Part shown: in pieces, positions 332 through 14,533 of the stretch
How the letters are laid out: the number at the start of each line of letters is the position of its first letter
How positions within the stretch are numbered: position 1 is the first letter of the stretch
DNA from: Acidobacteriota bacterium
Lineage (GTDB): Bacteria; Acidobacteriota; Terriglobia; Terriglobales; Acidobacteriaceae
Length of the DNA stretch: 22,309 nt
Assembly (NCBI GenBank): GCA_021793595.1
Contig: JAJYSL010000053.1
Span: 1 to 22,309, forward strand
Direction: 5' to 3'
Translations under genes and position numbers: made by a program
Notes under the pieces: model-generated
Told to the model about the DNA's origin: nothing
What the model saw: only the letters and a program-made list of their open reading frames with translations
The model's database searches: none

Positions 332-349
332 TTATTTTCCGATGCAGAA
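332..349 (-). other. Candidate attachment-site core at the 3' end of mnmE
   Basis: The last 18 bases of mnmE on the minus strand, TTCTGCATCGGAAAATAA, encode FCIGK and the stop. Salmonella genomic island 1 and relatives are known to use the last 18 bp of mnmE (trmE/thdF) as their attachment site. An integrase-like gene beginning 183 bp downstream in the matching orientation makes this the natural junction. The second copy would lie outside the window and was not seen. Confidence 0.4.
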
Positions 350-1723
350 GGTGGAGAAGATCAGATTCAAAATATCGTCGGCTGTTGTAGCGCCGGTCAA
401 TGCATCCAGGCTGCGCAGCGCGGTATGAAGATCGATCAGCAGCATCTCGTGGGGGACTTCGGCAGCGATCGCCTGTTCTGCAGCCTGAAGGGCTTGCAGC
501 GTTTCCGACACCGCCTGCTGCTGGCGAACATTGGTCATCAGCCCGCTCTCGACTTCATTTCCTTCTCCGCGAATCAGCGTTAGGATTGCTTCGCGTAGTT
601 GCGAAATTCCTTCGCCAGTCAGTGCCGAGGTCTCAATCGCGCCGCGCGATCGGTTCGCAGAATGGACAACTTCGCTTCCGGATATCCCGCGGACCAGGTC
701 CGTCTTGTTCAACACCACCAGTGCTCGACGTGTTCGCATCTGTTCCAGCAGAGAGATCTCTTCGTGGGTCAACGCTTCCGCGGTGGCGTCGAGCACCAAC
801 AACACGACATCAGCATCCGCCAATGCCTCGCGCGATTTTTGAATACCGATGCTTTCGGCTTCATCCTGCGCGGTTCGTAACCCTGCCGTATCGATCAGGT
901 CGAGCGGGATTCCACCCAGCGAAACACGCTCCGTCACCAAGTCTCGCGTGGTTCCTGGGGTGGCCGTCACGATGGCACGTTCCCGTTGTACAAGCTGATT
1001 GAATAGGGAGGACTTTCCCGCGTTCGGACGGCCGACAATCGACAGCGAGATTCCATCGCGCACCACTCGGCCGTAGGCGAACGATGCGGCCAGCGCCTGC
1101 AGCGGTTCGATGATCGTCGCCACCCGATTCGCAATGATTGCTGCCGGCATCACGTCGATGTCGTCTTCGGCGAAGTCGATCCCCGCTTCCAATTCCGCAA
1201 TCAGATGCACCAGCGCCTGCTTGATCGGCTGGATACGACGCGAGAGTGAACCTTCCATCTGCTCGGATGCAATTTTTGCCTGGAACAGGGTTTGCGCCTC
1301 GATCAGATCACGCACGGCTTCGGCTTGCGTCAGGTCGATGCGCCCGGAAAGAAACGCGCGCTCGGTGAACTCGCCGGGCCGTGCTAATCGAGCGCCTCGC
1401 GTGATGGCAGCCCGCACCAGTGACTCCAACACCACCGGCGAGCCATGCGCGGCGATTTCGACGACATCTTCTCTAGTGTAGGAATTGGGCGACTGAAAGA
1501 ACGTGACCACCGCTTCGTCGATTCGAGTCGCTCGTTCCGCGTCTTGATTCTCTGGATCGAGAATGTCGGCCAGTTGGGCATGGGTTGGTACGAGAGGTTT
1601 TTCTAACAGCATCAGGCTTGAAGCAATCGGAACCGCGTCCGCGCCGGAGAGACGCACGATGCCGATGCCGCCGCGACCCGGCGGTGTTGAAACGGCTACG
1701 ATCGTGTCGCGCGCTGCACTCAA
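332..1723 (-). CDS. mnmE: tRNA modification GTPase MnmE
   Basis: MnmE acts with MnmG to install the carboxymethylaminomethyl-type modification on wobble uridine 34 of certain tRNAs. The 463-aa length is normal. The N-terminal tetrahydrofolate-binding domain opens with DTIVAVSTPPGRGGIGIVRL. The embedded Ras-like G domain shows the P-loop GRPNAGKSS (about residue 231), DTAGL (about 277) and NKTD (about 338), and the protein ends with the invariant FCIGK. The start at 1723 is TTG: the nearest upstream ATG (1729-1731) is in another frame and stops after three codons, and the family N-terminus fits TTG. The purine-rich AAAGAAAAAGAAATAA in front is also the 3' end of the upstream toxin-like gene, whose stop is 7 nt away, so the two are probably co-transcribed. 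mnmG is not in the window. Confidence 0.97.
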   Translation of the reverse strand: MSAARDTIVAVSTPPGRGGIGIVRLSGADAVPIASSLMLLEKPLVPTHAQLADILDPENQDAERATRIDEAVVTFFQSPNSYTREDVVEIAAHGSPVVLESLVRAAITRGARLARPGEFTERAFLSGRIDLTQAEAVRDLIEAQTLFQAKIASEQMEGSLSRRIQPIKQALVHLIAELEAGIDFAEDDIDVMPAAIIANRVATIIEPLQALAASFAYGRVVRDGISLSIVGRPNAGKSSLFNQLVQRERAIVTATPGTTRDLVTERVSLGGIPLDLIDTAGLRTAQDEAESIGIQKSREALADADVVLLVLDATAEALTHEEISLLEQMRTRRALVVLNKTDLVRGISGSEVVHSANRSRGAIETSALTGEGISQLREAILTLIRGEGNEVESGLMTNVRQQQAVSETLQALQAAEQAIAAEVPHEMLLIDLHTALRSLDALTGATTADDILNLIFSTFCIGK

Positions 1724-1730
1724 GCGAACA

Positions 1731-2201
1731 TTATTTCTTTTTCTTTGGGTTCTTGGGGCCAGTATGGTTTGGATGATTGTCTGGATATAGCTTGTGGAGG
1801 GCGTCCAGCCAGACGATATAGAAGATGTTCCCGATTAATATGCCGGATGCGCGCCATCCTATCTCCGGTTCTTTCTTTTCTTCTGGGCAAATCCTGATCT
1901 GCCATGCTTCTTCCATATTTAGGTTCTCATCCAAGGAAGAAAAGCCGTCGCGTTCCGATGTTTCGGAGAAATCAATCGTATGTCGATCTATTTGTTTATT
2001 CTGATCGCGAAAACGATCAACAGTATAGCCAGAATACTTTTGCACAGCGATTATAAGGTTGCGGAAATACTCGGCGGTGCACAAGGCAATGTTGAACTTC
2101 TTTGACTGAATATCGAGATGCTTGAAAGAAAACTCGAGAGTTTCTGTCTCTTTGGCTTTCTTGGCAACAGGGATTCTAAGTCCCTGTTGCTGTTTAGCCA
2201 T
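1731..2201 (-). CDS. Putative toxin partner of a Panacea/SocA-type antitoxin
   Basis: A 156-aa cytoplasmic protein without signal peptide or membrane segment. Visible blocks are FSFKHLD (24-30), DRFRDQNKQIDRH (62-74), EEAWQI (97-102), and a hydrophobic C-terminal block FYIVWLDALHKLYP (127-140), followed by a lysine tail (NPKKKK). I recognise this pattern as a partner often found beside DUF4065 proteins but cannot name the family or its activity. Its start overlaps the end of the antitoxin-like gene by 8 nt, which implies translational coupling. In Caulobacter SocAB, a SocA-type protein delivers the toxin SocB, a DnaN inhibitor, to ClpXP; whether this protein works that way is unknown, and no clear clamp-binding motif is visible. 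The gene is more AT-rich than its neighbours, which suggests transfer. It lies 7 nt upstream of mnmE. Confidence 0.7.
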   Translation of the reverse strand: MAKQQQGLRIPVAKKAKETETLEFSFKHLDIQSKKFNIALCTAEYFRNLIIAVQKYSGYTVDRFRDQNKQIDRHTIDFSETSERDGFSSLDENLNMEEAWQIRICPEEKKEPEIGWRASGILIGNIFYIVWLDALHKLYPDNHPNHTGPKNPKKKK

Positions 2202-2646
2202 CCAAGCGCGCGTGATAAAAGTTTTTCATCGACTCATGGGTGATGACCCGATTAGACGGCTCATCGGGCGCAAGCGAGCCCCGAGCTTCCTTCCATGGGC
2301 CTTCTTGATGGGTCATGCGTTCCAAAGTGGTCGCATCGAACTCCCCATACACGCGGGTGACCTCTTTCAGATGAAAGGTCAAATCGCTTAGGGTTTCCGC
2401 CTTCACTTCCTCTGTGATGGGACGCCATGCGTAATCCTTGTACTGACGAAAGACGCTTGGTACGACGGGACCATGAACCCATGCCTGAATTGGATCCAGA
2501 AATAACGGTTTCCCATAAAGCGCCAGATGCCAAGCTTGTGCGTAGTACAACAGCTTCTGCAGCTTTAAGTTGCTGATTTCCTTATTTTTCTTTTGGAAGG
2601 AGGAAATGAAATACTTTGCCACCTCTGATGCTGTCGTAGATTTCAT
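2194..2646 (-). CDS. Panacea (SocA-like, DUF4065) domain antitoxin
   Basis: A 150-aa protein dominated by a Panacea/DUF4065 domain at about residues 5-110. Diagnostic blocks are SNLKLQKLLYYAQAWHLALY (about 25-44), PLFLDPIQAWVHGPVVP (about 47-63) and VFRQYKDY. Proteins of this family are antitoxins in many toxin-antitoxin pairs; Caulobacter SocA is also a proteolytic adaptor. It is the first gene of a two-gene unit and overlaps the putative toxin by 8 nt (TAA inside the downstream ATGGCTAAA). A GGGAGAGGG ribosome-binding stretch precedes the ATG. A candidate promoter with a palindrome over its -10 box lies upstream, so autoregulation is plausible. The unit interrupts the usual jag-mnmE order. 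Domain identity is firm; the antitoxin role is inferred from family and arrangement. Confidence 0.85.
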   Translation of the reverse strand: MKSTTASEVAKYFISSFQKKNKEISNLKLQKLLYYAQAWHLALYGKPLFLDPIQAWVHGPVVPSVFRQYKDYAWRPITEEVKAETLSDLTFHLKEVTRVYGEFDATTLERMTHQEGPWKEARGSLAPDEPSNRVITHESMKNFYHARLDG

Positions 2647-2675
2647 GGCCCTCTCCCTATTCCTTAGATGTAACT

Positions 2676-2709
2676 CTCCTACAATAGGAGCGAAATAACA
2701 TTAACACAA
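2676..2709 (-). promoter_or_regulatory. Candidate promoter and operator of the toxin-antitoxin unit
   Basis: On the minus strand TTGTGT (2704-2709) and TATTGT (2681-2686) are spaced by 17 bp. The -10 box lies inside the perfect palindrome CTCCTACAATAGGAG (2676-2690, 6-bp arms, 3-bp centre), a good place for a repressor to block transcription. Predicted transcription would start about 25-30 nt upstream of the antitoxin ATG. Confidence 0.5.
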
Positions 2710-2739: not shown

Positions 2740-3294
2740 TTATCCTCGCCCAAAGGTGCGTGCCCGCCCGGTTCCCGCGGAAGGAGTTCTGGGCTGCCAG
2801 TTTTTTGGATAGACCACGACGGAACGACGCATGCCTTCTCCGCTGCTTTCGCTGCGCAGATCGTCATAGTGTTTCAAGGCCAGGTGCAGCATGCGCCGCT
2901 CGCGGGAGTTCATCGGCGCGAATTGATACGGCTCGCCAGTTCGATGCACTTGCTCTGCGGCAGTGTCGGCTGCGAGCTTAAGTTCCTGAGCGCGCAACGC
3001 TTTGTAGCCTCGCGCGTCGAAGCTGACCAGATCGTGCTCGGAGGGCTCCAGTCGCAGCGATTTTGCCGCGATGTGCTCCAAAGAGCGCAACAGCTCCGCA
3101 TTATGTTCCAGCACCAGGTCCACATCCGGCCCCGCAATTTCCACGTAGATTTCGCGTGACTCGAACTTGTGTGGATCCGCCGCGCCCGCACCTGCGGTAA
3201 TCCTGTACTTGAGCCGCAAACAGCCTTTGCCGACCACAGTTTTCAAAAACGCATCGATTGTTTCTACGGCAGATTGATAGTTTTCAATGGGCAT
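2740..3294 (-). CDS. jag: Jag/KhpB-like KH-R3H RNA-binding protein
   Basis: A 184-aa protein with the single-stranded nucleic acid-binding domain pair of Jag (SpoIIIJ-associated protein, also KhpB/EloR). The KH-like region at about residues 20-95 contains GPDVDLVLEHNAELLRSLEH. The R3H domain at about 123-162 contains NSRERRMLHLALKHYDD followed by SESSGEGMRRSVVVYP. The N-terminal Jag_N domain of Firmicutes versions is absent, as is common outside that phylum. In other bacteria the protein binds RNA and influences cell elongation and division. It starts 32 nt after the yidC stop, the usual yidC-jag order, which supports the call. The C-terminal 15-20 residues are basic and glycine-rich. Confidence 0.9.
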   Translation of the reverse strand: MPIENYQSAVETIDAFLKTVVGKGCLRLKYRITAGAGAADPHKFESREIYVEIAGPDVDLVLEHNAELLRSLEHIAAKSLRLEPSEHDLVSFDARGYKALRAQELKLAADTAAEQVHRTGEPYQFAPMNSRERRMLHLALKHYDDLRSESSGEGMRRSVVVYPKNWQPRTPSAGTGRARTFGRG

Positions 3295-3326: not shown

Positions 3327-5132
3327 TCAACGCCGGGTGAGTGCTGCCGGTCGTCCGCCCTTCTTTTTCAACGCTCGCCTGGCTTGAATCTCCCGCAACT
3401 CTTTGCCTAACTTGGTGCGGTTAATGATCATTTGCTGCCCGATGCCGATCAAGTTACTCCCCGACCAATACAACGCCAGCCCCGACGCATAATGCCAGCA
3501 GATAAATCCGCTGAACAACGGCATCGTAAACGCCATCATCTTTTGCTGGGCGGCATCGACGCCCGGCGACGGCGTAAACATCTGGAAGAAGAACTGCGAC
3601 ACCACCATCAAAATCGGAAGAATGTGATACGGATCCGGAGCCGACAAATCATGCAGCCAGAACCAGTGCGCATGGCGCAGCTCGATCGCGTTTTCCAGCA
3701 TGGCATAAAACGCGAAAATCAGGGGAAACTGAACCAGCATGGGAAGGCAGCCTCCAAACATGTTGACGCCCTCCTTTTTGTACAGCTCCTGCATTTCCCG
3801 GTTCATGTCCTGCTTGCGCGGGTCGTCGAACTTGTATTTCTTGTACTTCTCCTTGATAAAGTTCATCTGCGGCTGGATGCGCTGCATTTTGATCGATGAC
3901 TTCATCATGGTGAAGCGCGTCGGGAACATGGCCAGCGTCAGAAACACTGTCAGGATCAGGATCGCCCAGCCCCAGTTCGGGACCACATGCTGATATACCC
4001 AGCGCAGCAGGTAAAACAGCGGCTTGGCAATGATCGACCACATGCCGTAATGCACAATCGGCTCCAGGTTCGGACCGGTCGGTTTTCCATCCGGCCCCAT
4101 GGCACGGATCGACGACAACACCCCCAGCGACTTGGGGCCGGCAAAAATCCGCACCGTCGTTGGGCCATTCACGGCACCCACGGCTGCACCTAATATCGGC
4201 TCAGGCTCAGTCTCGCTAGTCTTCGGCTCGTCCGGATTTTTTGGAATATCCAGCGTATGGCGCAGCGCCACAAAGGTGCTATCGGCCGGTGTCTCCGGAA
4301 GAAACATCGCGGCAAAATACAGGTCACTTACACCTCCCCAGTCGAGCGAGCCTGCCTGCGTTTCGCCGTCATTTACTTTCTTCGGCGCAATGCTTTCTAT
4401 CTTGCCGCTGCTCGATCGATCAATCTTCTGATACGTGGAGTAATCGCGCGCCTCGCGTTGATCGCCGAATCCCGCCGGCCACGCAACCAGCGCCTCGACC
4501 GGCGCACCATTCTGCGTCACACTCACATCCGCCGTGACAACGTAGCTGTCGTCGAAATGGAACGTCTTGCGAACCACCAGGCCGCCGGCGGAATAGTTAA
4601 ACGTCAACTGATTGGGCGCCGTCAGCGTTCCGGTTGCGGAAGGCACATACAGTGCCTGCGCCAGGCGCTGCCGCAATCCTGCGTCATAGGTATAGATCGA
4701 CAGCGGATACCCAAATTTTTCGGCGGCCGTCGGATGCACCAGGTCCAGCGGCTTGTCATCGTAGTTTGTGTACTTCTTCAAAATCCACGAGGTCACTTCG
4801 CCGCCGCGATTGCTGAACGTAATCCGGTACAGCTCGTTTTCGACGACCGTGGAGGTCTGGGTTGCGGCCGCTACCTTCGGTGTTGCCGCCGCTATGGATG
4901 CTTCCTTACCTGTGGCGTTTGGAGCATTGTTGCCGACGGTCGCGCCATTTTGCTCGGTCGCACTCGTGTTCGCAGCGGAGGTGGGGGCTGCAGTTGGAGT
5001 CGGAGTTGCCGGGTGCTTCGGCTTGAAAAATTGCATGCCCAGCAGAATTGCCGCAAACACAACGGTAAACACCAGCAGGGAATTCGTATCCTGCTTCCCG
5101 CCTTGCTGGTTAGGATTTTTATATTCGGCCAA
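3327..5132 (-). CDS. yidC: Membrane protein insertase YidC
   Basis: YidC inserts proteins into the inner membrane, alone or with SecYEG. It has an N-terminal membrane segment (LLVFTVVFAAILLGMQFF, about residues 18-35), a Pro/Ala/Thr-rich linker, a periplasmic beta-sandwich (about 90-330) and the five-helix Oxa1-type core. The core includes the helix ending FPTRFTMMKS with its conserved arginine, the charged cytoplasmic hairpin (MQRIQPQMNFIKEKYKKY), GGCLPMLVQFPLIFAFYAML, and the last helix ending ALYWSGSNLIGIGQQ. The frame extends to another TTG at 5153, but I chose the TTG at 5132, giving MAEYKNPNQQ, because AGGAAG lies 5-6 nt upstream and the product then has the usual N-terminus (601 aa). 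It lies between yidD and jag on the same strand. Confidence 0.95.
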   Translation of the reverse strand: MAEYKNPNQQGGKQDTNSLLVFTVVFAAILLGMQFFKPKHPATPTPTAAPTSAANTSATEQNGATVGNNAPNATGKEASIAAATPKVAAATQTSTVVENELYRITFSNRGGEVTSWILKKYTNYDDKPLDLVHPTAAEKFGYPLSIYTYDAGLRQRLAQALYVPSATGTLTAPNQLTFNYSAGGLVVRKTFHFDDSYVVTADVSVTQNGAPVEALVAWPAGFGDQREARDYSTYQKIDRSSSGKIESIAPKKVNDGETQAGSLDWGGVSDLYFAAMFLPETPADSTFVALRHTLDIPKNPDEPKTSETEPEPILGAAVGAVNGPTTVRIFAGPKSLGVLSSIRAMGPDGKPTGPNLEPIVHYGMWSIIAKPLFYLLRWVYQHVVPNWGWAILILTVFLTLAMFPTRFTMMKSSIKMQRIQPQMNFIKEKYKKYKFDDPRKQDMNREMQELYKKEGVNMFGGCLPMLVQFPLIFAFYAMLENAIELRHAHWFWLHDLSAPDPYHILPILMVVSQFFFQMFTPSPGVDAAQQKMMAFTMPLFSGFICWHYASGLALYWSGSNLIGIGQQMIINRTKLGKELREIQARRALKKKGGRPAALTRR

Positions 5133-5401
5133 GAGACTTCCTGTTGCGTTCAATTTCCGCTCTGCAATTTCAGCGCAAACGCTTCCACGACCAGGGCAGG
5201 CCTGCGGTGGAGGCTGAATTTTCTGCTGTCTCGATCGTTCCTCGACGCTTCTGGGGTTCGACGTGCCGGGACGGTTCGCGCAGATGCGGGTATACCTATC
5301 CTACCCGTTTTTATGCCCTACTTGCAGGCGGTTCGGCAGCCCGCGACGCCTGCACCTGCCGAGACAGTGAGATACGAAGAAAATGGCCGCGACTGAAACG
5401 C
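5133..5401. other. Gap between yidD and yidC without a supported gene
   Basis: This 269-bp stretch has no supported gene, although yidD and yidC are normally close. It holds a small inverted repeat, CGGGTA (5287-5292) with TACCCG (5302-5307). On the minus strand a weak promoter-like pair, TGCAAG and TAGGAT with 17 bp between, suggests that yidC might have its own promoter. Neither signal is strong. Confidence 0.3.
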
Positions 5402-5674
5402 CTATGGCACTGGGTCGAAACCGCCGCGCCGGCCCTTGCGGCTCCAGGGATGACAGCGCGAAATTCTCGCGATTGCCATTCCGGACCCACGCAGCCAGCC
5501 GTAACGCGCCACCGCGATGGCAGCATACTCCGAACAAGTCGGTTGAAAACGGCAGCCGCTGGGCATTGGCAGCAGCGAGCCCCCCAGCGCATGCAGGCTG
5601 GGAGAAATCCATCGCTGATAGAGGCTGGCCAGCCGCTCCACCCGAGCCGCACGCCGCTCCTGACTAGTTGCCAT
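5402..5674 (-). CDS. yidD: Membrane protein insertion efficiency factor YidD
   Basis: A 90-aa protein of the YidD family, a small membrane-associated factor that assists YidC-dependent insertion. It contains the family pattern: [10 protein letters not shown], then [12 protein letters not shown] (about residues 40-51) with two conserved cysteines, and [18 protein letters not shown] at the C-terminus. The amphipathic N-terminus is rich in arginine. Its ATG overlaps the end of rnpA by 11 nt, so translation is probably coupled. The order rnpA-yidD-yidC is the conserved one. Confidence 0.95.
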
Positions 5675-6143
5675 GGCTCGGGTCTGTATCGCAGCGTGAC
5701 TTCAGCGCCAGTTGTACCGCGCGAAACGCCCGCCGTACATCCCGCTCAATCTGAGAAAATTCGGCTTCCAGCACGGTACGCCGAGGATGAAGCACCACAT
5801 CCACATTAGCCGTCAGTTCCGTCTGCACCTGCCGGATCGCCTGCCGCATACGCCGCTTAATGCGATTGCGAGCCACCGCATTCCCCAGCACTCGGCCGGC
5901 AGTCAGGCCAACCCGGGACCCAGGAGGAATTTCCATTGCATGGCTACGCGCGGGCTTCACTGTGCTGCCAACCTCGGTCGCGTCCTGCAGCTTGCGAGCC
6001 GCGAAAAAATACGTCATCAGCGGCAACGACTGCCGCTTCCCCTCGCGATAGACCCGCTGATAGTCAGCGTGCTTGCGCAGCTTTGATTCCCGCCGCGGGG
6101 CGGCCACGGGCTTGCGCACTCGAACTGGAGATGGGGCTGGCAT
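5664..6143 (-). CDS. rnpA: Ribonuclease P protein component
   Basis: The small basic protein subunit of RNase P, which with the RNA subunit matures the 5' ends of tRNAs. The hallmark is [20 protein letters not shown] (about residues 82-101), containing the RNR motif, preceded by RVGLTA. The early [17 protein letters not shown] is typical of the family N-terminus. At 159 aa it is longer than the usual 110-130, owing to a basic N-terminal extension (residues 1-18) and an insertion before RVGLTA (about residues 52-76) not typical of model RnpA. GGTGAG precedes the ATG. It is followed directly by yidD with an 11-nt overlap. Confidence 0.95.
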
Positions 6144-6280: not shown

Positions 6281-6315
6281 ACCCATCCTTCGGTCGCCTC
6301 AGCGACAAGGGTGGG
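6281..6315. repeat. Intergenic palindrome between rpmH and rnpA
   Basis: The segment starting CCCATCCTTCGGTCGCC and ending GCGACAAGGGTGGG folds as a hairpin: CCCATCCTT against AAGGGTGGG (8 of 9) and an inner GTCGC-CTCA-GCGAC perfect stem. From memory this type of element is frequent between genes in Acidobacteriota, but I cannot count copies here; only this copy was seen in the window. It may affect rpmH-rnpA mRNA processing. Confidence 0.5.
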
Positions 6316-6324
6316 GGAGGGAAG

Positions 6325-6480
6325 CTAGTCGCGGTAGCCGGCGCTGACAGACACGCGCTTGCGGCCTTTGGCGCGACGGCGCGATAGTACGGCTTGCCCC
6401 GCCTTGCTCTTCATACGGGCCCTGAAGCCATGCGTCTTGGCGCGGTGGCGGCGATTCGGTTGAAATGTGCGCTTCGGCAT
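6325..6480 (-). CDS. rpmH: 50S ribosomal protein L34
   Basis: A 51-aa protein translated directly from the sequence. It begins [19 protein letters not shown] and continues with [20 protein letters not shown], the full L34 signature, and ends VSVSAGYRD before a TAG stop. L34 is a component of the large ribosomal subunit, and rpmH is normally the first gene of the rpmH-rnpA-yidD-yidC run, as here. AGGAG lies upstream of the ATG, inside a small GGAG-CGCA-CTCC hairpin that could modulate translation. A well-formed promoter lies 50-75 nt upstream. Confidence 0.97.
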
Positions 6481-6527
6481 CGGAGTGCGCTCCTAAACGG
6501 AAAATCTTATATAGACAGCAAACTTTG

Positions 6528-6556
6528 AGTATACCGGAGAACAGTCTGCCGCACAA
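6528..6556 (-). promoter_or_regulatory. Promoter of the rpmH operon
   Basis: On the minus strand TTGTGC (6551-6556) and TATACT (6528-6533) are separated by exactly 17 bp, a good match to a sigma-70-type promoter. Transcription would start near 6521 and give a leader of about 40 nt before rpmH. Confidence 0.65.
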
Positions 6557-6771
6557 AGCGCAGTCGCGATTCCGTAGGAGGAATAGGCATGTCCGTCGGC
6601 AAGCATCATGTAGATGATGGGGATATTTGTGGCAGCGGTGAGAAAGCTGAATGTCGTAGTCGGAAGCCGACCCCCTGCCGGCAAAGGTCTTCAACCGCGA
6701 CAAAGGCAGGAACCGCGTCAGCCTGTGGGAGCCCGCGCACATTCCTGCCAATTTCCTTCTTACCTTTTCAC

Positions 6772-6915
6772 TCAGATCACTCGCAACAACAGCAGGATGA
6801 TCACGATCAGCAAAATCAGCCCGAGCCCGCCGCCCCCGTAGTAGCCAACTCCGGGGCCCAAGCGATACCCGCCAAACACCACAATCAAAAGTAGAACGAT
6901 CAAGATAAGTAGCAT
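6772..6915 (-). CDS. DUF3309-like small membrane protein
   Basis: A 47-aa peptide read directly from the sequence. It has two hydrophobic helices, MLLILIVLLLIVVFGG (1-16) and LGLILLIVIILLLLRVI (31-47), joined by a glycine/tyrosine-rich turn (GYRLGPGVGYYGGGG). This two-helix, Gly-rich-loop pattern is that of DUF3309, a family of tiny membrane proteins of unknown function. GGGAG lies 6 nt upstream of the ATG, which supports real translation. It lies 100 bp downstream of the AsmA-like gene on the same strand and could share its transcript. Confidence 0.75.
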   Translation of the reverse strand: MLLILIVLLLIVVFGGYRLGPGVGYYGGGGLGLILLIVIILLLLRVI

Positions 6916-7015
6916 TTTGTCTCCCTTGCGGCGAACGCCCCTCGCCATGTGCTAGCCGATTGGATGCAAATGCCAAGAAAGCGTGCGCGCCTCCAACCGG
7001 TTTTTTGCGACCGCC

Positions 7016-8338
7016 TCAGTGGACGACAGTGAACTGCGGGTTCGCCAACGTGCCCGTCAGCTTGATGGGAAACACCAGGCGTCCATCTTTTTCTTTGGCC
7101 CCTTTGAACCAGCGCGCAAATGTATTGGTAAAAAAACCCTGCTTTTTTTCGATGGTGGCCGTTCCTCGATAATTCACTGGCCCTCCTGCCAGAGACATGC
7201 TGCCAGTCCCATCTACAGTGACTCCGTAAAAATCGACCGCGATCCGCTTGCTGTACATCCGTCGATTTTTCAGTTCCATATCACCGGCAAACGTGGAGAA
7301 TGCCGACGCCGGCTTCCCTGCCGCGTCCTTGATTCGAAACTGTTCGACCTGCTTCATGCTGGCATTCCGGTTCAGGCCCGGCAGTTGTCCCTGGTGCACC
7401 ATCAGCGTGCCCATCCCATCCATGTCGCCCAATGGGCTTGAGGAGTGCGCGATCTCTCCGCCGACATCGAGCGTGGCCTCCAGCATTCCCGTCATCTTTG
7501 GCAGTCCGGTTTCAAACTCAGCCAGCAGATAGGGCATGCCGACACCGGTCACGTGCATCTTTGCGTGGAATGTTGTCTTCTTCTTCCCTTGAAAATTGAA
7601 GCTGAAATCTCCCTTCGCTTCTCCGCGATAGGTCCTGGCTTCTAGATTCTTGAAGACCAATTCCAGCGCTTGAATTTGAACATCGGAACGCAGATCTCGC
7701 GTATGGATCGAGCCAAAACCGGCACTCGCCGCCGTCAGCCGGCCTTGAATCGTCTTGCCCGACGCACCCTGGCCATGCCGGTGAAATTGAATCTGCTTCA
7801 AGTTGCCGTTAACGTCCCGCAGCTCCAGAATCACGGGGCCGGGCTTGTCGGAAGGATCAATCAGGTTCGACCCCAGCAGCACACCGTGCCGCACTTCCAG
7901 GTTTGCAATCGACCCGGTCGAAAACCGGGTGGGTTGATTTTTCGGCCCGGCTGGATTTTGGAAGTTCCACAGACCATCGGGATCGGAGATGAAATCGATC
8001 GCCGGTTGATGCAGCACCAGCGAGCGAATCACAACCTTTCTTTCCAGCAGCAGCGGCGTCCATTCGACAGAAGCCTCCAGCATGGGAACCTTCAGGAAAT
8101 CTCCCGCCGGAAAGGGTTTTGGATTTTTTACCTCCAGCCCATACACACGCACCCGCAATGGAAGATATCGAATGTCGAGATGCCGGGCGGCGATCTGTAG
8201 CCCGGTTCTCTTCTCGGCATTCGCAATCACCATGGGGAGATAGCGATCGGGGTTGTGCAGCCAGTACCAGGCCGCCGCAATAGCGACAACGATCACTCCT
8301 GCAAAAATAACGAACGCAATCTTTAAGCGAGCCTTCAT
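7016..8338 (-). CDS. AsmA-like membrane-anchored periplasmic protein
   Basis: A 440-aa protein with one N-terminal signal anchor (KIAFVIFAGVIVVAIAAAWYW, within residues 6-26) followed by a long beta-rich periplasmic part. NPDRYLPMVIANAEKRTG and the repeated LEV/IRSLVL-type strands are typical of AsmA-like proteins (AsmA/TamB/DUF748 relatives), which are thought to help lipid transport or outer-membrane homeostasis. The C-terminal part (VDFYGVTVDGTGSMSLAGG, then VFPIKLTGTLANPQFTV) matches the AsmA C-terminal repeat style. GGAAG lies 5 nt before the ATG. It follows the nucleoside hydrolase gene by 90 bp on the same strand, but no functional link is evident. The substrate is unknown. Confidence 0.8.
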   Translation of the reverse strand: MKARLKIAFVIFAGVIVVAIAAAWYWLHNPDRYLPMVIANAEKRTGLQIAARHLDIRYLPLRVRVYGLEVKNPKPFPAGDFLKVPMLEASVEWTPLLLERKVVIRSLVLHQPAIDFISDPDGLWNFQNPAGPKNQPTRFSTGSIANLEVRHGVLLGSNLIDPSDKPGPVILELRDVNGNLKQIQFHRHGQGASGKTIQGRLTAASAGFGSIHTRDLRSDVQIQALELVFKNLEARTYRGEAKGDFSFNFQGKKKTTFHAKMHVTGVGMPYLLAEFETGLPKMTGMLEATLDVGGEIAHSSSPLGDMDGMGTLMVHQGQLPGLNRNASMKQVEQFRIKDAAGKPASAFSTFAGDMELKNRRMYSKRIAVDFYGVTVDGTGSMSLAGGPVNYRGTATIEKKQGFFTNTFARWFKGAKEKDGRLVFPIKLTGTLANPQFTVVH

Positions 8339-8428
8339 CGAACTTCCACAGAACAGGTTTGCCTTCTCTGCGCACCTTTGACCTTAGATGCAATGCGCCG
8401 CCTCTCTCCAGAACCGAATCCCGTCCGG

Positions 8429-9442
8429 CTACTTTTTTTCTGCCTGCGCCGAACATCCAGGGTTCAGGCTTCCCATGCCCAGCCTCTGTTCCATCAGCCG
8501 GGGCAGCAGAAACTGAAAAAAGCGGTCTGAGTCGGAATGCAGGCACACCATGGCGTTCGTCTTTCCCCGTTCCGGGCGGGTATATCCAGCATCGTCAACT
8601 TCGATATGCATGGGTTGCGACGGGCACAGGTCTCCGTCAATCGTCGCCTCCACCGCCATCACGTCGAACAGCGTCGGCGTGGCGGAATTTCCGCCTCCCC
8701 ACTCCTGCGTCAGCACCTCAAGCGAGTCCGTCAGCGGCGTGCTCTGGCGAAACAGAATCGACCGCATCACCTCATCCAGCTTCAGCTGGGTCGAATCGAG
8801 CGGAGCCATCGTGATGGGCACACCGGAGGCAAACAGTTTTTTCGCGGCGGCCACGTCCATCGCGATGTTGTATTCCGCGGACGGACCACGATCCGGAGCG
8901 TAGCCCAGGTCCCCATAGCCGCGATGAATCGAGCCACCCATCATGACCACCCGCTTCAGCATGCGGAAGGCGGCCGGGTCTCGATCGATCAGCGCACCGA
9001 CATTGCTCAGCGGTGCAATTTCAATCAGCGTGATCTGGCCCGGATTGGCGCGAATCGTTTTCGCCATCCATGCAATCGCATCTGTATCCGTATTCGTAGG
9101 AGGCGGAAAACGGCCGGCCCACGAGGCCTGGGTAAATACGTTATGGGCTTTCGTCGGAACTCCGATAAACACCGGGATATTTTGCCGTCCCGTCTTGCAC
9201 AACAGGCCTTCCACCAACTGCGCGCGCAAGCCGGTATTGCCCCATGCGGTCGTCACGCCCAGCAACTTCAGTTCCGGACTGGTCAACACCAGTGCCAACG
9301 CATACGCATCGTCAATGTCATCGCCAATGTCCGTATCCAGAATCACCTTTTGTGGAGCGGGCTGTGGCTTTTGCGCCCGCGCAAACTTCGAGCCCGCGAC
9401 CAGCAGGCAAAGGACAACCATCCACCAACACTTCACGCGCAT
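8429..9442 (-). CDS. Secreted inosine/uridine-type nucleoside hydrolase
   Basis: A 337-aa member of the nucleoside N-ribohydrolase family, which cleaves ribonucleosides to base and ribose. A signal peptide (MRVKCWWMVVLCLLVAG, cleavage likely near ARAQ) implies a periplasmic or secreted enzyme. The calcium and ribose-binding motif is DTDIGDDIDDAYAL (residues 36-49), with the acidic cluster of the family. Further family blocks are VMMGGS, SAEYNIAMDVAAAKKLF and MAPLDSTQ. The frame stays open upstream to about 9742, but the ATG at 9442 directly precedes the signal peptide, so I chose it; no clear ribosome-binding site is visible there. An upstream in-frame ATG at 9469 lies in a perfect hairpin. 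Base specificity cannot be read from the sequence. Confidence 0.85.
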   Translation of the reverse strand: MRVKCWWMVVLCLLVAGSKFARAQKPQPAPQKVILDTDIGDDIDDAYALALVLTSPELKLLGVTTAWGNTGLRAQLVEGLLCKTGRQNIPVFIGVPTKAHNVFTQASWAGRFPPPTNTDTDAIAWMAKTIRANPGQITLIEIAPLSNVGALIDRDPAAFRMLKRVVMMGGSIHRGYGDLGYAPDRGPSAEYNIAMDVAAAKKLFASGVPITMAPLDSTQLKLDEVMRSILFRQSTPLTDSLEVLTQEWGGGNSATPTLFDVMAVEATIDGDLCPSQPMHIEVDDAGYTRPERGKTNAMVCLHSDSDRFFQFLLPRLMEQRLGMGSLNPGCSAQAEKK

Positions 9443-9667
9443 ATGCAACCATTCTAGAGCGGAATGCATGATGAACCGCTGCGCTGGTTCATCATGCGCG
9501 CCTCCCCCCGGTGTTGATGCGCCCTGGGTGTCGCCGGCCACCGCCCGTGGTGCAGGGAATGTGCCGTCCCCAGCGCCAAGAAGTGCCGCTCTGCGCCGCA
9601 ACCGTGTGCTTGAACAGCAAACAAGTGCCAGAATCGCCGCCACAAAAAAGATCTTGGATTTGCTCAT
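9443..9667 (-). other. In-frame open leader with its own signal-peptide-like start
   Basis: The nucleoside hydrolase frame is open upstream. An ATG at 9667 with AAAGG 7 nt before it starts a peptide MSKSKIFFVAAILALVC that looks like a signal peptide, followed by a GDGTFPAPRAVAGD stretch reminiscent of an FG-GAP/VCBS repeat. It runs in frame into the hydrolase. It may be the remnant of another secreted gene, a fused leader or chance. I do not claim a functional gene. Confidence 0.25.
9466..9497. repeat. Perfect 12-bp inverted repeat ahead of the nucleoside hydrolase
   Basis: GCATGATGAACC (9466-9477) and GGTTCATCATGC (9486-9497) are exact reverse complements around an 8-nt loop. There is no T-run on either side, so a terminator is unlikely. 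It ends 24 nt upstream of the hydrolase ATG at 9442 and contains the alternative ATG at 9469 in its 3' arm on the minus strand. It could be an operator or an mRNA hairpin. Confidence 0.6.
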
Positions 9668-9806
9668 GGTAGCCTTTCGCGGTTGTGGCGTATGCTGCGT
9701 GGGAAAGCCATATGATTCTGTTTCATAGCCGGCAAGCGACAATTCGCGCTCAAAGTATTCCCGCTATGTCGCTCGTGGATGTCCCACTCAGTGAGGAGTT
9801 CGATCG
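9668..9806. other. Divergent intergenic region at the strand switch
   Basis: All genes to the left lie on the minus strand and all to the right on the plus strand. The segment contains a spaced inverted repeat, GCGACA (9736-9741) with TGTCGC (9767-9772), and GAGGAG ahead of the GH106 gene. I found no consensus DnaA box and no clear promoter pair. Confidence 0.4.
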
Positions 9807-12665
9807 ATGAAAACCACCGCAATTGCGTTGCTTGGCCTCATCGTATGTGCACCCTTGGTCGCCCAGAATGCGTCCACCGTTGCGCAACAATTTCAGAATC
9901 CCGCGAAAGCCTACCGCCCCATGGTGCGCTGGTGGTGGCCCGGTGGGGATGTCGCAGATGAGGAATTGCGTCGAGAAGTTGTGCTGCTGGACCAGGCAAA
10001 TTTCGGCGGCGGCGAGATTCAGCCGTTCGTGATCGGACTCCACACCGATATGCCGGCGGATACTCGCAAGCGCGTCGACGACTACCTGACGCCAACGTTT
10101 TATGCGCACCTGCGAGCTGCCCTGGAAGAAGCGCGCGACCGCGGCATGTGGATGGACTATACCTTCGGCTCCGGCTGGCCATTCGGCGGAGCTGGGGTCA
10201 TTACTCCGGAACTTTCCGCAGTCGAGCTGCGATCCACCCATCGGAGCATTCGCGGTCCGGTCCACTTCCACGCTGCACTGCCAATGCCTCGGCTCGGCGA
10301 AGATATTACGACGAATCATGACCTGCCCGCAGGCTGGCTGCAGCGATTTCAAAAACGAGAAAAGCTGGTCGCCGTGGTCGCGGTTCGTGGCGATGTGCCC
10401 CAGTATTTTCAGAGTCAATCGCCCCACCAGCAACAGTCCGAGCGATTTCCGGGCCATCTCGATCCTGGAACCTCCGTGGTACTGACGAGCCATCTGAGCC
10501 CGGACGGAACGCTCGATTGGGATGTGCCTCCGGGGACCTGGCAGGTCTTCGTCTTTAAAGAATTGCCGACCGGGCAGCAAGTGACGGGCGGAACCGGCGC
10601 TGGAACACAACTGGTTCTCGACCACATGAGCCGACAGGCTTTTGACGCCTACGCGAATCGGGTTGGCGGCACCGCGAAACAATACGATGGCCAGTTCTTC
10701 GGCCATGGACTCCGAGCCATCTTCTGCGACAGTCTGGAGGTCCAGGCGAACCTCTATTGGAATGACGACTTTCTGAATGAGTTTCGCAAACGCCGCGGCT
10801 ATGATCTCACTCCGTATCTGCCCATTCTGAAAGTGGCCGGGTTTAGCGTGCCCTACGGTGCGTCGCCAGTCGACCTGCCTGTGTATGACATCTCCGGAAT
10901 CGGTGATCGTATTCGGCAGGACTATTGGCAGACCGTTTCCGATCTGATGATCGAGAATTTCTACTCGCCCTTCATCCAGTGGGCTGCCAACAACAATTTG
11001 CTGTCACGCGTGCAGGCGCATGGATCGCCCACCGACCTGCTTCGCGTCTATGGCGAGTCCAGCATTCCAGAGACAGAAGACCTGTACGACAGCGGACGTT
11101 ACGACTTCCTGAAAATGTCAGCGTCCGCCGCTGATTTGTTCGGTCGAAAAATTGTATCCAGCGAGAGTTTCGTCTGGCGCGGCAAGGCGTACCAAACTAC
11201 GCCCGAGAAAATTAAGCGCTATGCTGACGAACTGCTCACCGCCGGCATCAACGAGATTGTCTATCACGGCTTTCCTTACGAATACATGGACCGCCCCGAA
11301 CCCGGCTGGCACCCCTTCGCCGCCAACGGTTCGTATTCCTCCCACATGAACCGGCACAACGCCTTCTGGCCGTATCTTCCACGCCTGAATGAGTACATCG
11401 CCCGCGTGCAATACATGTCACAAACCGGCACTACAGTCGTGCCGGTCGCACTCTATCGCGGTCTGCTCGCCTACGACTCGATCGAACCCGCTCCGCCGGA
11501 ACCAGAAATTGCCGTCCGCATGATGGCGGCGGGATATAACTACGACCACATCGATGCCTACGTGCTGCTGCATTCGAAGGTGCTCCGTGGCAAGTTGATC
11601 TCTCCCGGCGGTGAAGCCTACCGTGTTCTCGTCCTTCCCAATCAGAAAACTGTCGCCCTCCAGGTCGCTGATCAGTTGGCGACATTCGCTCGCCAGGGCC
11701 TTCCTATTGTGTTCATCGGCCGCACTCCTCTCACAGAACCCGTCGTATCGGATGGACAACTGCCCACCGCAGCCCCGACGGATTCGCTGGCGAAGCTTCT
11801 CACAGAGAAGAATGTCCACTCAACTCCCGATGCATCCGGCGCCGTAAAAATCCTTGCCGCCAACATTCAGCCCAATCTGCAATTCGATGGAGCCTCCGTT
11901 CCCTTCATTGAAAAACGCATTGGCTCGCTGGATATATTTTTCCTGCGCAATCCATCCAGCGCCGAAAAGCTTGTGACCGCGGACTTCCTCGCCAAGGGCA
12001 CTCCGGAAATCTGGGACCCCTGGACCGGCCAGCACCGTCCGTTCACACAATTCCAACGGCGTACAGGCACCTTACGCGCCCGGCTCGACATGGATCCGTA
12101 TGGTTCCGCGCTGCTGGTCTTCGACCCCGCGGCCAAACCGGTGAAGCCTTCCGCATTCGTATCCGAGACCATTTCTCCCACCGCACAAATTGATATCGGC
12201 CAAAGTGGCTGGAAGTTTCACGGCGTTGGCATCGGTCCCGGCAGTCAGCCTGAAACTGTCGACCTGGATTTCCCGACGCTGGTCGACTGGACGTCCATCG
12301 ACAAGCTGAAGAATTTCTCCGGACGAGGACAGTACACGACTACGTTCAACGTGCCCGCGGAGTACCTCGCCAAATATCCGCACATATTGCTCGACCTGGG
12401 CGACGTTAAAGATGTGGCCGAAATCTCCATCAATGGGAAGCCCGGTCCCGTCCTGTTGCTGCGTCCCTATCGAGCCGACGTGACCACGTTATTGCATGCA
12501 GGAGAAAATACATTGCAGGTGACGGTGGTCAACACGCAGTACAACGCGCTTTCCGCGCGCGGCGCAGACCGAAACTTTGTTCCAGGTCCGACAGATACGG
12601 CGAATGGCCTCATGCCTTCCGGCCTGCTGGGACCTGTGCGGCTGGAGGCGGCAACACAGCAGTAA
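9807..12665 (+). CDS. Secreted GH106 alpha-L-rhamnosidase-like glycoside hydrolase
   Basis: A 952-aa protein with a signal peptide (MKTTAIALLGLIVCAPLVAQ). The start of the mature part, RPMVRWWWPGGDVADEELRR, is the characteristic opening of GH106, whose known members release alpha-L-rhamnose from plant polysaccharides such as rhamnogalacturonans. Other family blocks are MWMDYTFGSGWPFGG (about residues 113-127), RVQAHGSPTDLLRVYGESSIPETE around residue 401 (split here by me as one block), SSESFVW (about 452-458) and the following GINEIVYHGFPYEYMD. A C-terminal galactose-binding-like beta-sandwich (about 800-940) includes YTTTFNVPAEYL and AEISINGKP. GAGGAG precedes the ATG. It is followed by a permease gene after a 100-nt spacer. 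The exact glycosidic linkage is not predictable. Confidence 0.88.
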   Translation: MKTTAIALLGLIVCAPLVAQNASTVAQQFQNPAKAYRPMVRWWWPGGDVADEELRREVVLLDQANFGGGEIQPFVIGLHTDMPADTRKRVDDYLTPTFYAHLRAALEEARDRGMWMDYTFGSGWPFGGAGVITPELSAVELRSTHRSIRGPVHFHAALPMPRLGEDITTNHDLPAGWLQRFQKREKLVAVVAVRGDVPQYFQSQSPHQQQSERFPGHLDPGTSVVLTSHLSPDGTLDWDVPPGTWQVFVFKELPTGQQVTGGTGAGTQLVLDHMSRQAFDAYANRVGGTAKQYDGQFFGHGLRAIFCDSLEVQANLYWNDDFLNEFRKRRGYDLTPYLPILKVAGFSVPYGASPVDLPVYDISGIGDRIRQDYWQTVSDLMIENFYSPFIQWAANNNLLSRVQAHGSPTDLLRVYGESSIPETEDLYDSGRYDFLKMSASAADLFGRKIVSSESFVWRGKAYQTTPEKIKRYADELLTAGINEIVYHGFPYEYMDRPEPGWHPFAANGSYSSHMNRHNAFWPYLPRLNEYIARVQYMSQTGTTVVPVALYRGLLAYDSIEPAPPEPEIAVRMMAAGYNYDHIDAYVLLHSKVLRGKLISPGGEAYRVLVLPNQKTVALQVADQLATFARQGLPIVFIGRTPLTEPVVSDGQLPTAAPTDSLAKLLTEKNVHSTPDASGAVKILAANIQPNLQFDGASVPFIEKRIGSLDIFFLRNPSSAEKLVTADFLAKGTPEIWDPWTGQHRPFTQFQRRTGTLRARLDMDPYGSALLVFDPAAKPVKPSAFVSETISPTAQIDIGQSGWKFHGVGIGPGSQPETVDLDFPTLVDWTSIDKLKNFSGRGQYTTTFNVPAEYLAKYPHILLDLGDVKDVAEISINGKPGPVLLLRPYRADVTTLLHAGENTLQVTVVNTQYNALSARGADRNFVPGPTDTANGLMPSGLLGPVRLEAATQQ

Positions 12666-12740
12666 AGACTTGTTGGGAACACGAAAAAAAACCATCCAGG
12701 AACGAATCGTCGAGACGCAATCACAATTCGCGCGGATCCA

Positions 12741-12773
12741 CGCCGCATGGAGAGCTCCTCGCTCCATGCGGCG
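12741..12773. repeat. Perfect 12-bp inverted repeat over the permease start codon
   Basis: CGCCGCATGGAG (12741-12752) and CTCCATGCGGCG (12762-12773) are exact reverse complements around a 9-nt loop. The probable permease ATG (12766-12768) is inside the 3' arm, so the hairpin would bury the start codon in the mRNA. No U-run follows, so it is not a classical terminator. Translational control between the GH106 and permease genes is inferred. Confidence 0.65.
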
Positions 12774-14118
12774 GCTGCGGCTGCTTCCATTGGTCGCGGC
12801 CACGTACTTCATGGTGTCAGGCGGTCCCTACGGACTGGAAGACATCGTCGGCCAGGCTGGATACGGCCGAGCGTTGTTGCTACTCCTCATCGTCCCGCTG
12901 ATCTGGAGCCTGCCGACCGCATTGATGGTTGGCGAGCTGGCCAGCGCGCTTCCTGAAGATGGCGGCTTTTACATCTGGGTCAGCCGCGCTCTTGGCCGCT
13001 TCTGGGGATTTCAAGAGGCCTGGCTCTCCCTTTCCGCCAGCATTTTCGACATGGCGATTTATCCGGCCCTCGCCGTCGCCTACCTCGGGCAACTGGAGCC
13101 CACACTGACGGCTGGCCATCGCGGCGTGGCCTGGTCGCTGGTCGCGGTGGTGATTTGCGTTGCGTGGAATTTGCGCGGCGCTTATTCCGTCGGCCAAGGT
13201 TCGCTGTGGATGCTGGCCGTGTTGCTGACGCCCTTCTTCGGAATCATCGGTTTAGGCGTTTGGAGAAGTGGCTTGTTTCACGTTGCGGGGCATTCCGTGC
13301 GCCATGCAAGTATGTCGCGCACACCCCACGGCAGCATGGTGACTGCGTTGCTCTTCGTGGTGTGGAACTACATGGGATGGGACAACGCTTCCACCATTGC
13401 AGCGGAGGTCGAAGATCCGCAGCACAATTACATTCGCTCCATGCTGGCGGCTGTTCTGTTGGTCGCGGGCAGCTATGTTCTGCCCATCGCCGTGGTCGCG
13501 TTGACCGGAATTCCGTCGTCGATGTTTGTCACCGGTTCGTGGGTAGAGACAGCCCAGATTTTAGCGGCGCACGTCGGTCCGCGCTTTGCCGAATGGCTTG
13601 CGATTGCTGTAGTTGCCGGCGGTGCGCTGACCGGCATTGCCATGTTCAACGCCCTCATGCTTTCCTACGCCCGTGTTCCCGCTGCCATGGCCGGCGATGG
13701 TCTGCTTCCCAAGGCATTGGAGCGTCGCATGGCCAACGGTGTTCCCTGGGTCGCGGTGCTGGCATGCGCCGCTGCGTGGGCGCTGGCGCTGGGATTCAAT
13801 CTGAGACGCCTGCTGGAACTCGACATCCTGCTGTATGGATTGAGCCTGGTTCTGGAATTTGTTGCGCTCGCGGTTTTACGCTGGCGAGAACCTTCGCTTG
13901 TCCGGCCCTTCCGCGTGCCCTTCGGCCGCTTCGGCGCAGTGGCGATTGGCATCCTTCCCACCGCGTTGGTTTTGTTCACCATTTTCGCTGCCAGCGCCGA
14001 TCGCATTGCCGCAAGGTTACCAGCGATACTCTTCGGAACTTTCTTGGCTGCCATGGGTCCGCTATTCTATCTGTGCACGCTCCGTCGAAAACGCGCGGCG
14101 GACGATACAACTTCGTGA
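12766..14118 (+). CDS. APC-superfamily amino acid/polyamine permease
   Basis: About 450 aa with roughly 12 membrane helices and the APC fold. The first helix has MVSGGPYGLEDIVGQAGY, with the glycine-rich unwound segment that binds substrate. Next come PLIWSLPTALMVGELASALP and GGFYIWVSRALGRFWGFQEAW. These blocks resemble bacterial and plant polyamine/amino-acid:proton symporters of the APC group, so a polyamine or amino acid is the likely substrate (inference). The frame is open upstream to 12577, but that part overlaps the GH106 end and does not look like a transporter; ATG 12766 fits best, with TTG 12670 as an alternative that would add 32 residues. No clear ribosome-binding site is seen at 12766. 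Probably co-transcribed with the GH106 gene. Confidence 0.85.
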   Translation: MRRLRLLPLVAATYFMVSGGPYGLEDIVGQAGYGRALLLLLIVPLIWSLPTALMVGELASALPEDGGFYIWVSRALGRFWGFQEAWLSLSASIFDMAIYPALAVAYLGQLEPTLTAGHRGVAWSLVAVVICVAWNLRGAYSVGQGSLWMLAVLLTPFFGIIGLGVWRSGLFHVAGHSVRHASMSRTPHGSMVTALLFVVWNYMGWDNASTIAAEVEDPQHNYIRSMLAAVLLVAGSYVLPIAVVALTGIPSSMFVTGSWVETAQILAAHVGPRFAEWLAIAVVAGGALTGIAMFNALMLSYARVPAAMAGDGLLPKALERRMANGVPWVAVLACAAAWALALGFNLRRLLELDILLYGLSLVLEFVALAVLRWREPSLVRPFRVPFGRFGAVAIGILPTALVLFTIFAASADRIAARLPAILFGTFLAAMGPLFYLCTLRRKRAADDTTS

Positions 14119-14533
14119 TGCAGCGGTACGCGAAATTGATGTCCGCGCAAGCCCGGTTTTGACGGAGAAAATTTCCCATTGTCAATCCAAACCCGGCATT
14201 TGATGTGCCCTTTCACCACCCTTGGTGCAGTTTCGAGAAGAAATGATTTTGCGTCAAAAACACTGCTGCCTACAGGCACTTGAATGTGCTAGTATCGGCT
14301 TCGCTAGCGTCATCCGAACAACCCGTTCCGTGTGCTCGGACCACCCCAGGCTGATCACTTTTCAGCGAGTATCGGACAAACCGTAGCCAACATTTCTCAC
14401 GACCTTTGGCAATTTCAAGTTCGTAGCATGAACATGGAGTTCGCCGTATTGTTTAGCTTCGAAGGAGTAATCTCCGCTGCAGATGTCTCATTGGCATCGG
14501 CGATCGCAACGCAACGTTGAAAGTGAAAACAGC
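14119..14533. other. dnaA upstream region without a gene
   Basis: A 415-bp stretch between the permease gene and the chosen dnaA start. It has no convincing coding frame and no TTATCCACA-like cluster on either strand. It does hold a possible dnaA promoter (14267-14295) and GAAGGAG with a GGAG-TAAT-CTCC hairpin at 14464-14475. Two small inverted repeats, CACCA-CCCT-TGGTG near 14214-14227 and TGCCT-AC-AGGCA at 14267-14278, are also present. Confidence 0.5.
14267..14295 (+). promoter_or_regulatory. Candidate dnaA promoter with upstream palindrome
   Basis: TGCTAGTAT (14287-14295) reads as an extended -10 element (TGN followed by TAGTAT). No consensus -35 lies at the right distance; instead the palindrome TGCCTACAGGCA (14267-14278) covers the -35 position and could be a regulator site. 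The predicted leader before dnaA would be about 230 nt. Confidence 0.3.

Follow-up and report, generated by a model that had tools for sequence, protein, structure and literature searches.

The DNA analysed here is a stretch of 22,309 nucleotides from an acidobacterium, referred to as the window, whose open reading frame list gives the minus-strand gene order yidC, jag, panA, panT candidate and mnmE. The features of the locus are the following.

3327-5153, minus strand: yidC, from the open reading frame list
2740-3294, minus strand: jag, encoding an R3H protein (PF01424, E 5.4e-18), the core gene upstream of the pair
2704-2709, minus strand: -35-like element TTGTGT upstream of panA, of a pattern common to carriers
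2681-2686, minus strand: -10-like element TATTGT upstream of panA, within the palindrome CTCCTAcaaTAGGAG at 2676-2690
2194-2646, minus strand: panA, ATG start, encoding a standalone Panacea-domain antitoxin candidate of 150 amino acids
2194-2201, minus strand: overlap of panA and the panT candidate, 8 nt, from the open reading frame coordinates
1731-2201, minus strand: panT candidate, ATG start, encoding a phrog_8366-family protein of 156 amino acids with a RelE-like predicted fold
1734-1802, minus strand: C-terminal tail of the putative toxin, 23 amino acids past the last WLD motif, long in copies adjoining mnmE
1731-1746, minus strand: AAAGAAAAAGAAATAA, read from the sequence as the last part of the toxin gene and as the purine-rich stretch preceding the mnmE start
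332-1723, minus strand: mnmE, TTG start (NF003661, 386.1 bits against a cut-off of 380)

According to the open reading frame list, the pair represents the only plausible genes between jag and mnmE in the window. An initial annotation of this DNA had described a Panacea gene and a partner overlapping by 8 nt in the jag-mnmE interval and running in the same direction, a toxin-like stop codon 7 nt from the mnmE TTG, and a purine-rich stretch ending the toxin-like gene ahead of mnmE. The coordinates bear out all three, with the panT stop codon at 1731-1733 and the mnmE TTG at 1721-1723. A start scan identified this TTG as the sole in-frame ATG, GTG or TTG from the preceding in-frame stop to the TIVA codons of mnmE. 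At the other end, comparison of the jag ends of the relatives G174 and G118 places the beginning of the cassette at about the jag stop codon; jag ends were located in seven of the 14 rows of this comparison.

PanA matches the Panacea family PF13274 with 78.1 bits (E 1.2e-21), above the gathering cut-off of 25.7. Its AlphaFold2 model reached a pLDDT of 93, and the protein is conserved. A Foldseek comparison of the model with the PDB gave nothing meaningful (best E 2.8), a search against the sequences of solved structures returned only five weak rows (E 0.06-0.92), and PADLOC matched neither PanA nor its partner. As in the type VI system SocAB, in which SocA carries a Panacea domain, residues 8-85 of PanA are matched by the SocA model NF047745; the score of 72.1 bits, however, misses the equivalog cut-off of 190, and the partner matches no NCBIfam model.

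The partner likewise matched no Pfam family and no sequence of a solved structure, tblastn against plasmids and phages gave no match, and nine pattern stretches in viral contigs yielded no relative. The initial partner search returned seven proteins, the window's own included. A Panacea scan of species genomes supplied the best 80 of 496 relatives, which represent 79 distinct loci, and these were searched with a profile grown from the window's partner. Among these best 80 of 496, a partner homologue was present at 63 of the 79 loci and lay on the same strand, at most 600 nt behind the Panacea gene, at 61 of them: within 60 nt at 57, with many genes overlapping, and at 145-454 nt at four further loci. 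Of the remaining 18 loci, two run into a contig end within 264 nt; at L030 and L044 the match starts just outside the test range. Partner-positive loci include members of Cyanobacteriota, Bacteroidota, Chlamydiota and Acidobacteriota, and within this set the linkage of Panacea gene and partner exceeds chance.

Fifty-three partner members were aligned. Fifty of them match the profile of phrog_8366, a functionally unannotated family in a phage-protein library, at E 0.1 (best 3.7e-31; the window's protein 2.8e-5), and none matches a RelE-type Pfam family at the same threshold. The toxins RelE, HigB, YoeB and YafQ are the top structural neighbours of the predicted model, and the partner differs from them in lacking a sequence-family match and in its longer N- and C-terminal ends. 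All 53 have R117 and G120, and F24, S25, F127, W131, D133 and H136 are nearly invariant. R117 (53/53), H136 (51/53), D133 (51/53) and H74 (47/53) may correspond to known active-site residues. On the favoured reading, PanT most likely acts as a ribosome-dependent, mRNA-cleaving toxin restrained by PanA, and both proteins probably form a type II toxin-antitoxin locus of the Panacea kind. Comparison supports the "toxin-antitoxin unit" of the initial annotation as a candidate.

The copies next to mnmE differ from other members in their C-terminus. The tail past the last WLD motif comprises 17-23 residues, often ending in lysine, in the seven embedded copies, compared to a median of seven in 58 others, a few of which reach 15-32 (Mann-Whitney P 1.8e-5, a value inflated by kinship). 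Eight of 66 toxins, which have no WLD motif, and four duplicate loci were omitted from this comparison. In the toxin tree the embedded toxins lie close together, yet they form no single well-supported clade, and the same long tail is present in five metagenome relatives of unknown context (P0002-P0006).

The distribution of the pair was analysed in two samples. The first consisted of 150 genomes of the family of G003 (the genome of locus L003, recorded as Edaphobacter aggregans), in which Panacea was detected in 30, the MnmE N-domain in 147 and R3H in 144 genomes. In 86 of the 150, jag and mnmE share a contig and a strand and are no more than 12 kb apart, separated from domain to domain by 62-4320 nt (at most 300 nt in 47 of the 86). 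Panacea was found inside this gap in five of the 86 (G001, G003, G018, G091 and G092); G142 has it upstream of mnmE, close to the end of a contig. The second sample comprised 398 genomes of one acidobacterial family, searched by PanA alignment at E 1e-20. Twenty-three genomes were positive; the top eight (G001, G003, G018, G091, G092, G142, G174 and G002) scored 249-280 bits and all carry the gene beside jag and/or mnmE, and the remaining 15 scored at most 194 bits, with neither jag nor mnmE on the fetched segments, which were at most about 3.5 kb long. Within the 398-genome sample, the close PanA lineage is thus restricted to one address.

Besides the window, six assemblies (G001, G018, G174, G003, G091 and G092) have the pair between jag and mnmE. 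In G142 it stands ahead of mnmE at a contig end, and in G002 it follows jag, with the toxin cut by the contig end. Two full-length open frames are kept in the window, G142, G018, G001, G003, G091 and G092. The toxin frame of G174 is interrupted, which may be real or an assembly error. Since the mnmE of the window is 91% identical to that of G236, we place the window in the same presumed genus. Its ten genomes include the carriers G174, G142 and G002, the empty genomes G236, G213, G118, G068 and G225, G158 with a 3' remnant of the toxin gene, and G188, in which no mnmE was detected. The site is uninterrupted in G236, G213, G118 and G068, and in G118 the jag stop is 90 nt from the TIVA codon.

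The comparison of jag-mnmE spacing gave a patchy presence, with the close form in eight of 398 genomes, and a conserved ancestral part of the operon, as the pair would be on another reading, was rejected. In the mnmE tree the nearest neighbour of the window (G236), of G142 (G225) and of G091 (G022) is empty, with support; G174 and G118 are nearest by path length only, and G018 and G001 are nearest each other. On the 80-row mnmE tree, which excludes G174 and G002, the seven carriers need six changes, at least five of them on well-supported branches, compared to a mean of 6.8 for shuffled labels. A single clean gain is therefore unsupported, and as losses are also likely (G158, G225), gains cannot be counted. 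Change counts on the PanA and toxin trees (eight and four) were not used because metagenome rows of unknown context were labelled as not embedded there. The term "core jag-mnmE operon" of the initial annotation turned out to be too strong, given the proximity in 86 of 150 genomes, the variable gaps and the many mnmE genes that seem to have their own promoter; the pair itself does sit at that place.

Other genes were also observed between jag and mnmE. A similar protein of 279-312 amino acids occupies the gap in eight of 40 fetched regions (G013, G011, G056, G066, G110, G138, G080 and G031; loci L153, L156, L157, L163, L166, L172, L174 and L175), and the one tested, from L153, contains cNMP_binding and DUF1003 domains. 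A carbonic anhydrase or esterase-like gene is found in further gaps (L167 tested). This interval has the look of a general hot spot for insertions.

Two pairs of relatives were compared along the locus. In G018 and G001, which belong to one genus, identity amounts to 90% for mnmE, 93% for PanA residues 1-60, 60% for PanA residues 61-110 and 39% for the toxin; at the DNA level it is 91-93% where panA begins, drops to 62-76% between mid-panA and the end of the toxin gene and is about 85-91% in early mnmE. For the window and G174 the values are 84% (mnmE), 90% (PanA 1-60), 88% (PanA 61-110) and 37% (toxin, open G174 fragment). With the G001 toxin the same G174 fragment shares 64% identity, the identity to the mnmE of G001 being 71%. 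This mismatch between toxin and mnmE identities indicates that toxins change hosts, and in both comparisons the toxin gene is swapped between conserved flanks. Covariation of PanA residues 61-110 with the toxin is not supported, as the window shares 72% of this segment with G001 (toxin 42%) and 60% with G018 (toxin 65%).

G158 is taken as one of the 398 genomes and does not figure among the 23 in which a close PanA was detected. Its mnmE is preceded by a frame whose end lies 28 nt upstream of the TIVA codons and which is 38% identical over 60 amino acids to the G091 toxin (E 9e-7; profile E 8.7e-6). At this locus (L244) the toxin 3' remnant and a different small gene precede mnmE and jag is not in front, so that a rearranged locus has kept the toxin end.

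The junction with mnmE was examined for signs of how this gene is expressed. A TANAAT box 6-7 nt from the start codon is the layout of leaderless transcripts. Such a box stands 4-9 nt before an in-frame mnmE start in 27 of 72 non-carriers whose mnmE start could be recognised (at 6-7 nt in 26 of the 27, with GTG in 24), is missing in the other 45 and was found in none of seven carriers. The 72 are those left of 81 non-carriers with nearby jag and mnmE, eight having never been fetched and G010 having no motif; G002 was dropped as well. As background, a TANAAT box precedes 50 of the 10,239 start-like codons of this DNA, the 27 mnmE starts included. The box is not accompanied by a -35 element (two of 26 cases, against a background of 9%). 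In the presumed genus the box lies 6 nt before the mnmE GTG in four of the five empty genomes, the exception being G225; G125, outside this genus, also has none. Many mnmE genes of the family thus seem to have their own promoter, and the close empty relatives appear to start mnmE from a leaderless promoter of its own, which argues for capture of promoter and start by the pair, beyond mere embedding.

The toxin stop lies 14-28 nt ahead of the mnmE TIVA codons in all nine junctions, with G174 and G158 judged by the remainder of the last frame. Around this near-constant stop the mnmE start shifts: it is a TTG 7 nt after the stop in the window, TTG in G018 and G142, GTG in G003 and G092, and an ATG inside the toxin gene in G091, and G001 has none of ATG, GTG and TTG. 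G225, empty and without a box, shares the jag C-terminus of G142 and has a gap of 40 nt, which looks like a deletion scar. Terminator-like sites between 1600 and 3000 did not exceed chance (three found compared to 2.1 in shuffles). The claim that mnmE is tied to the pair holds for the physical tie, and we read this tie as a putative capture of promoter and start.

Upstream of panA, TTGNNT-N17-TANTGT occurs at near-constant distance in six of nine carriers (window, G174, G142, G018, G001 and G002) and is absent in G091, G003 and G092. In 240,804 bases of 81 regions, a set to which G174 does not belong, the pattern, which was picked after the sequences had been viewed, has five sites, equal to the number of panA-upstream sites there. 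A strict promoter scan returned no site upstream of panA in the window. The palindrome CTCCTAcaaTAGGAG (2676-2690) over the -10-like element is perfect and is absent at that place upstream in the other carriers.

Taken together, the box loss in carriers, the near-constant stop distance and the panA element suggest that mnmE is now expressed from the pair. We regard it as reasonably probable that, in some soil acidobacteria, a pair of the Panacea type whose alleles are exchanged at a single site took over the promoter and start of mnmE, the partner of PanA likely being a ribosome-dependent toxin; the core of the earlier reading, a toxin-antitoxin pair tied to mnmE, is likely. The cassette of promoter, panA and panT would fill the interval from about the jag stop to 14-28 nt before the TIVA codons and thereby replace the promoter and start codon of mnmE. 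PanA, the presumed antitoxin, would be translated first and PanT next via the 8-nt overlap; PanT would cleave mRNA on ribosomes, with PanA holding it in check. The panAT promoter, supplemented by any read-through from jag, would drive transcription of mnmE, and ribosomes terminating at the toxin stop codon would reinitiate on mnmE. Relatives would exchange the cassette and its toxin, with homologous recombination in the jag and mnmE flanks as the probable route.

The pair might instead be an ordinary passenger in a tolerant spot of a long yidC-jag-mnmE transcript, with mnmE expressed independently of it. Pairs inserted between core genes are already known (available parts of PMC7167474), other, unrelated genes occupy the same gap in the family, and the 45 box-less non-carriers would fit as well. 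Nevertheless, we consider this rather unlikely, as the box is present in most empty genomes of the presumed genus and absent in carriers, the toxin stop is nearly constant relative to mnmE, and a toxin 3' remnant still stands ahead of mnmE in G158. That the partner is no toxin, and PanA and the phrog_8366 protein form a sensor/regulator pair, with the ribosome or mnmE expression as possible targets, appears improbable: its RelE-like predicted fold, PHROG membership, cross-phylum Panacea linkage and high allelic divergence are more in keeping with a toxin or defence protein, although it belongs to no curated family, and of 25 Panacea pairs chosen for testing eight had partners that were not toxic in E. 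coli (available parts of PMC8832971). The interrupted frame of G174, the G158 remnant and the possible scar of G225 would also suit a decaying relic, inert in most carriers, whose toxin end persists only because mnmE starts there; the full-length frames in seven loci and the conservation of PanA and of the core motifs of the toxin make this very improbable.

The new elements here are the proposed capture of promoter and start and the allelic turnover; pairs of this type lodged between core genes have precedents. At relA/mazG the inserted pair is mazEF, and at dinB/yafP it is yafNO. Insertions at these sites and at folA/apaH are described in the available parts of PMC7167474 and PMC7232551; where the pairs are missing, relA-mazG and dinB-yafP form intact operons, the sites are plastic, and the mechanisms of chromosomal integration "remain unelucidated" (available parts of PMC7167474). 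The pair described here resembles those at the three sites, as far as these are covered there, in lying between core genes that are uninterrupted in strains without it and at a site taking different inserts, and differs in that the insert seemingly replaced the downstream promoter and start and in the swapping of its toxin among relatives. Panacea antitoxins have many toxin partners, and RelE/ParE is among the recurrent folds listed for the NetFlax network (available parts of PMC8832971 and PMC10440598). With the PanAT (Panacea/DUF4065) systems, as described in those parts, our pair shares the standalone Panacea protein, the antitoxin gene in first position, the overlapping partner and an architecture present in many species; unlike them, it lies within a core-gene run next to mnmE, with toxin alleles exchanged at a fixed site. 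The window's partner family was not found in the PanAT descriptions in the available parts of these two papers. SGI1-type islands have a hot spot at the 3' end of trmE/mnmE; they share mnmE as recurrent landing site but use its 3' end and an integrase, whereas the pair lies at the 5' end and is two genes long (available parts of PMC9035990). A search of the open-licence literature found no report of a toxin-antitoxin pair joined to the 5' side of mnmE, a weak negative.

The locus offers a natural series at one site, with filled, empty, half-lost and swapped states among relatives. Capture, if real, would by simple means make loss of a pair costly with no need for plasmid-style killing, and would physically link a toxin and tRNA modification. 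More tentatively, and in our view doubtful at present, the allele series may secure its place by holding mnmE, a gene for translational fitness, hostage: since an incoming cassette would delete the mnmE promoter and start, losing the pair would cost the host MnmE. As mnmE would share the promoter of the pair and start at the toxin's lysine-codon tail, toxin release might also reduce wobble-uridine modification of AAA/AAG-reading tRNAs, linking toxin activation to codon decoding.

Further genes were noted in the surroundings. Downstream of mnmE, at 200-330, short repeats of the type TGAGACCgg/ATGAGACC were seen by eye only. A block of about 8 kb (6299-14482) with AsmA-like, nucleoside hydrolase, GH106 alpha-L-rhamnosidase and amino acid permease genes is flanked by rnpA (5664-6143) and dnaA (14483-15952), and an alpha-L-fucosidase gene (20847-22289; PF01120, 9.6e-95) lies downstream of dnaN (19163-20332). 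Fucosidase and rhamnosidase together suggest polysaccharide use encoded near the origin.
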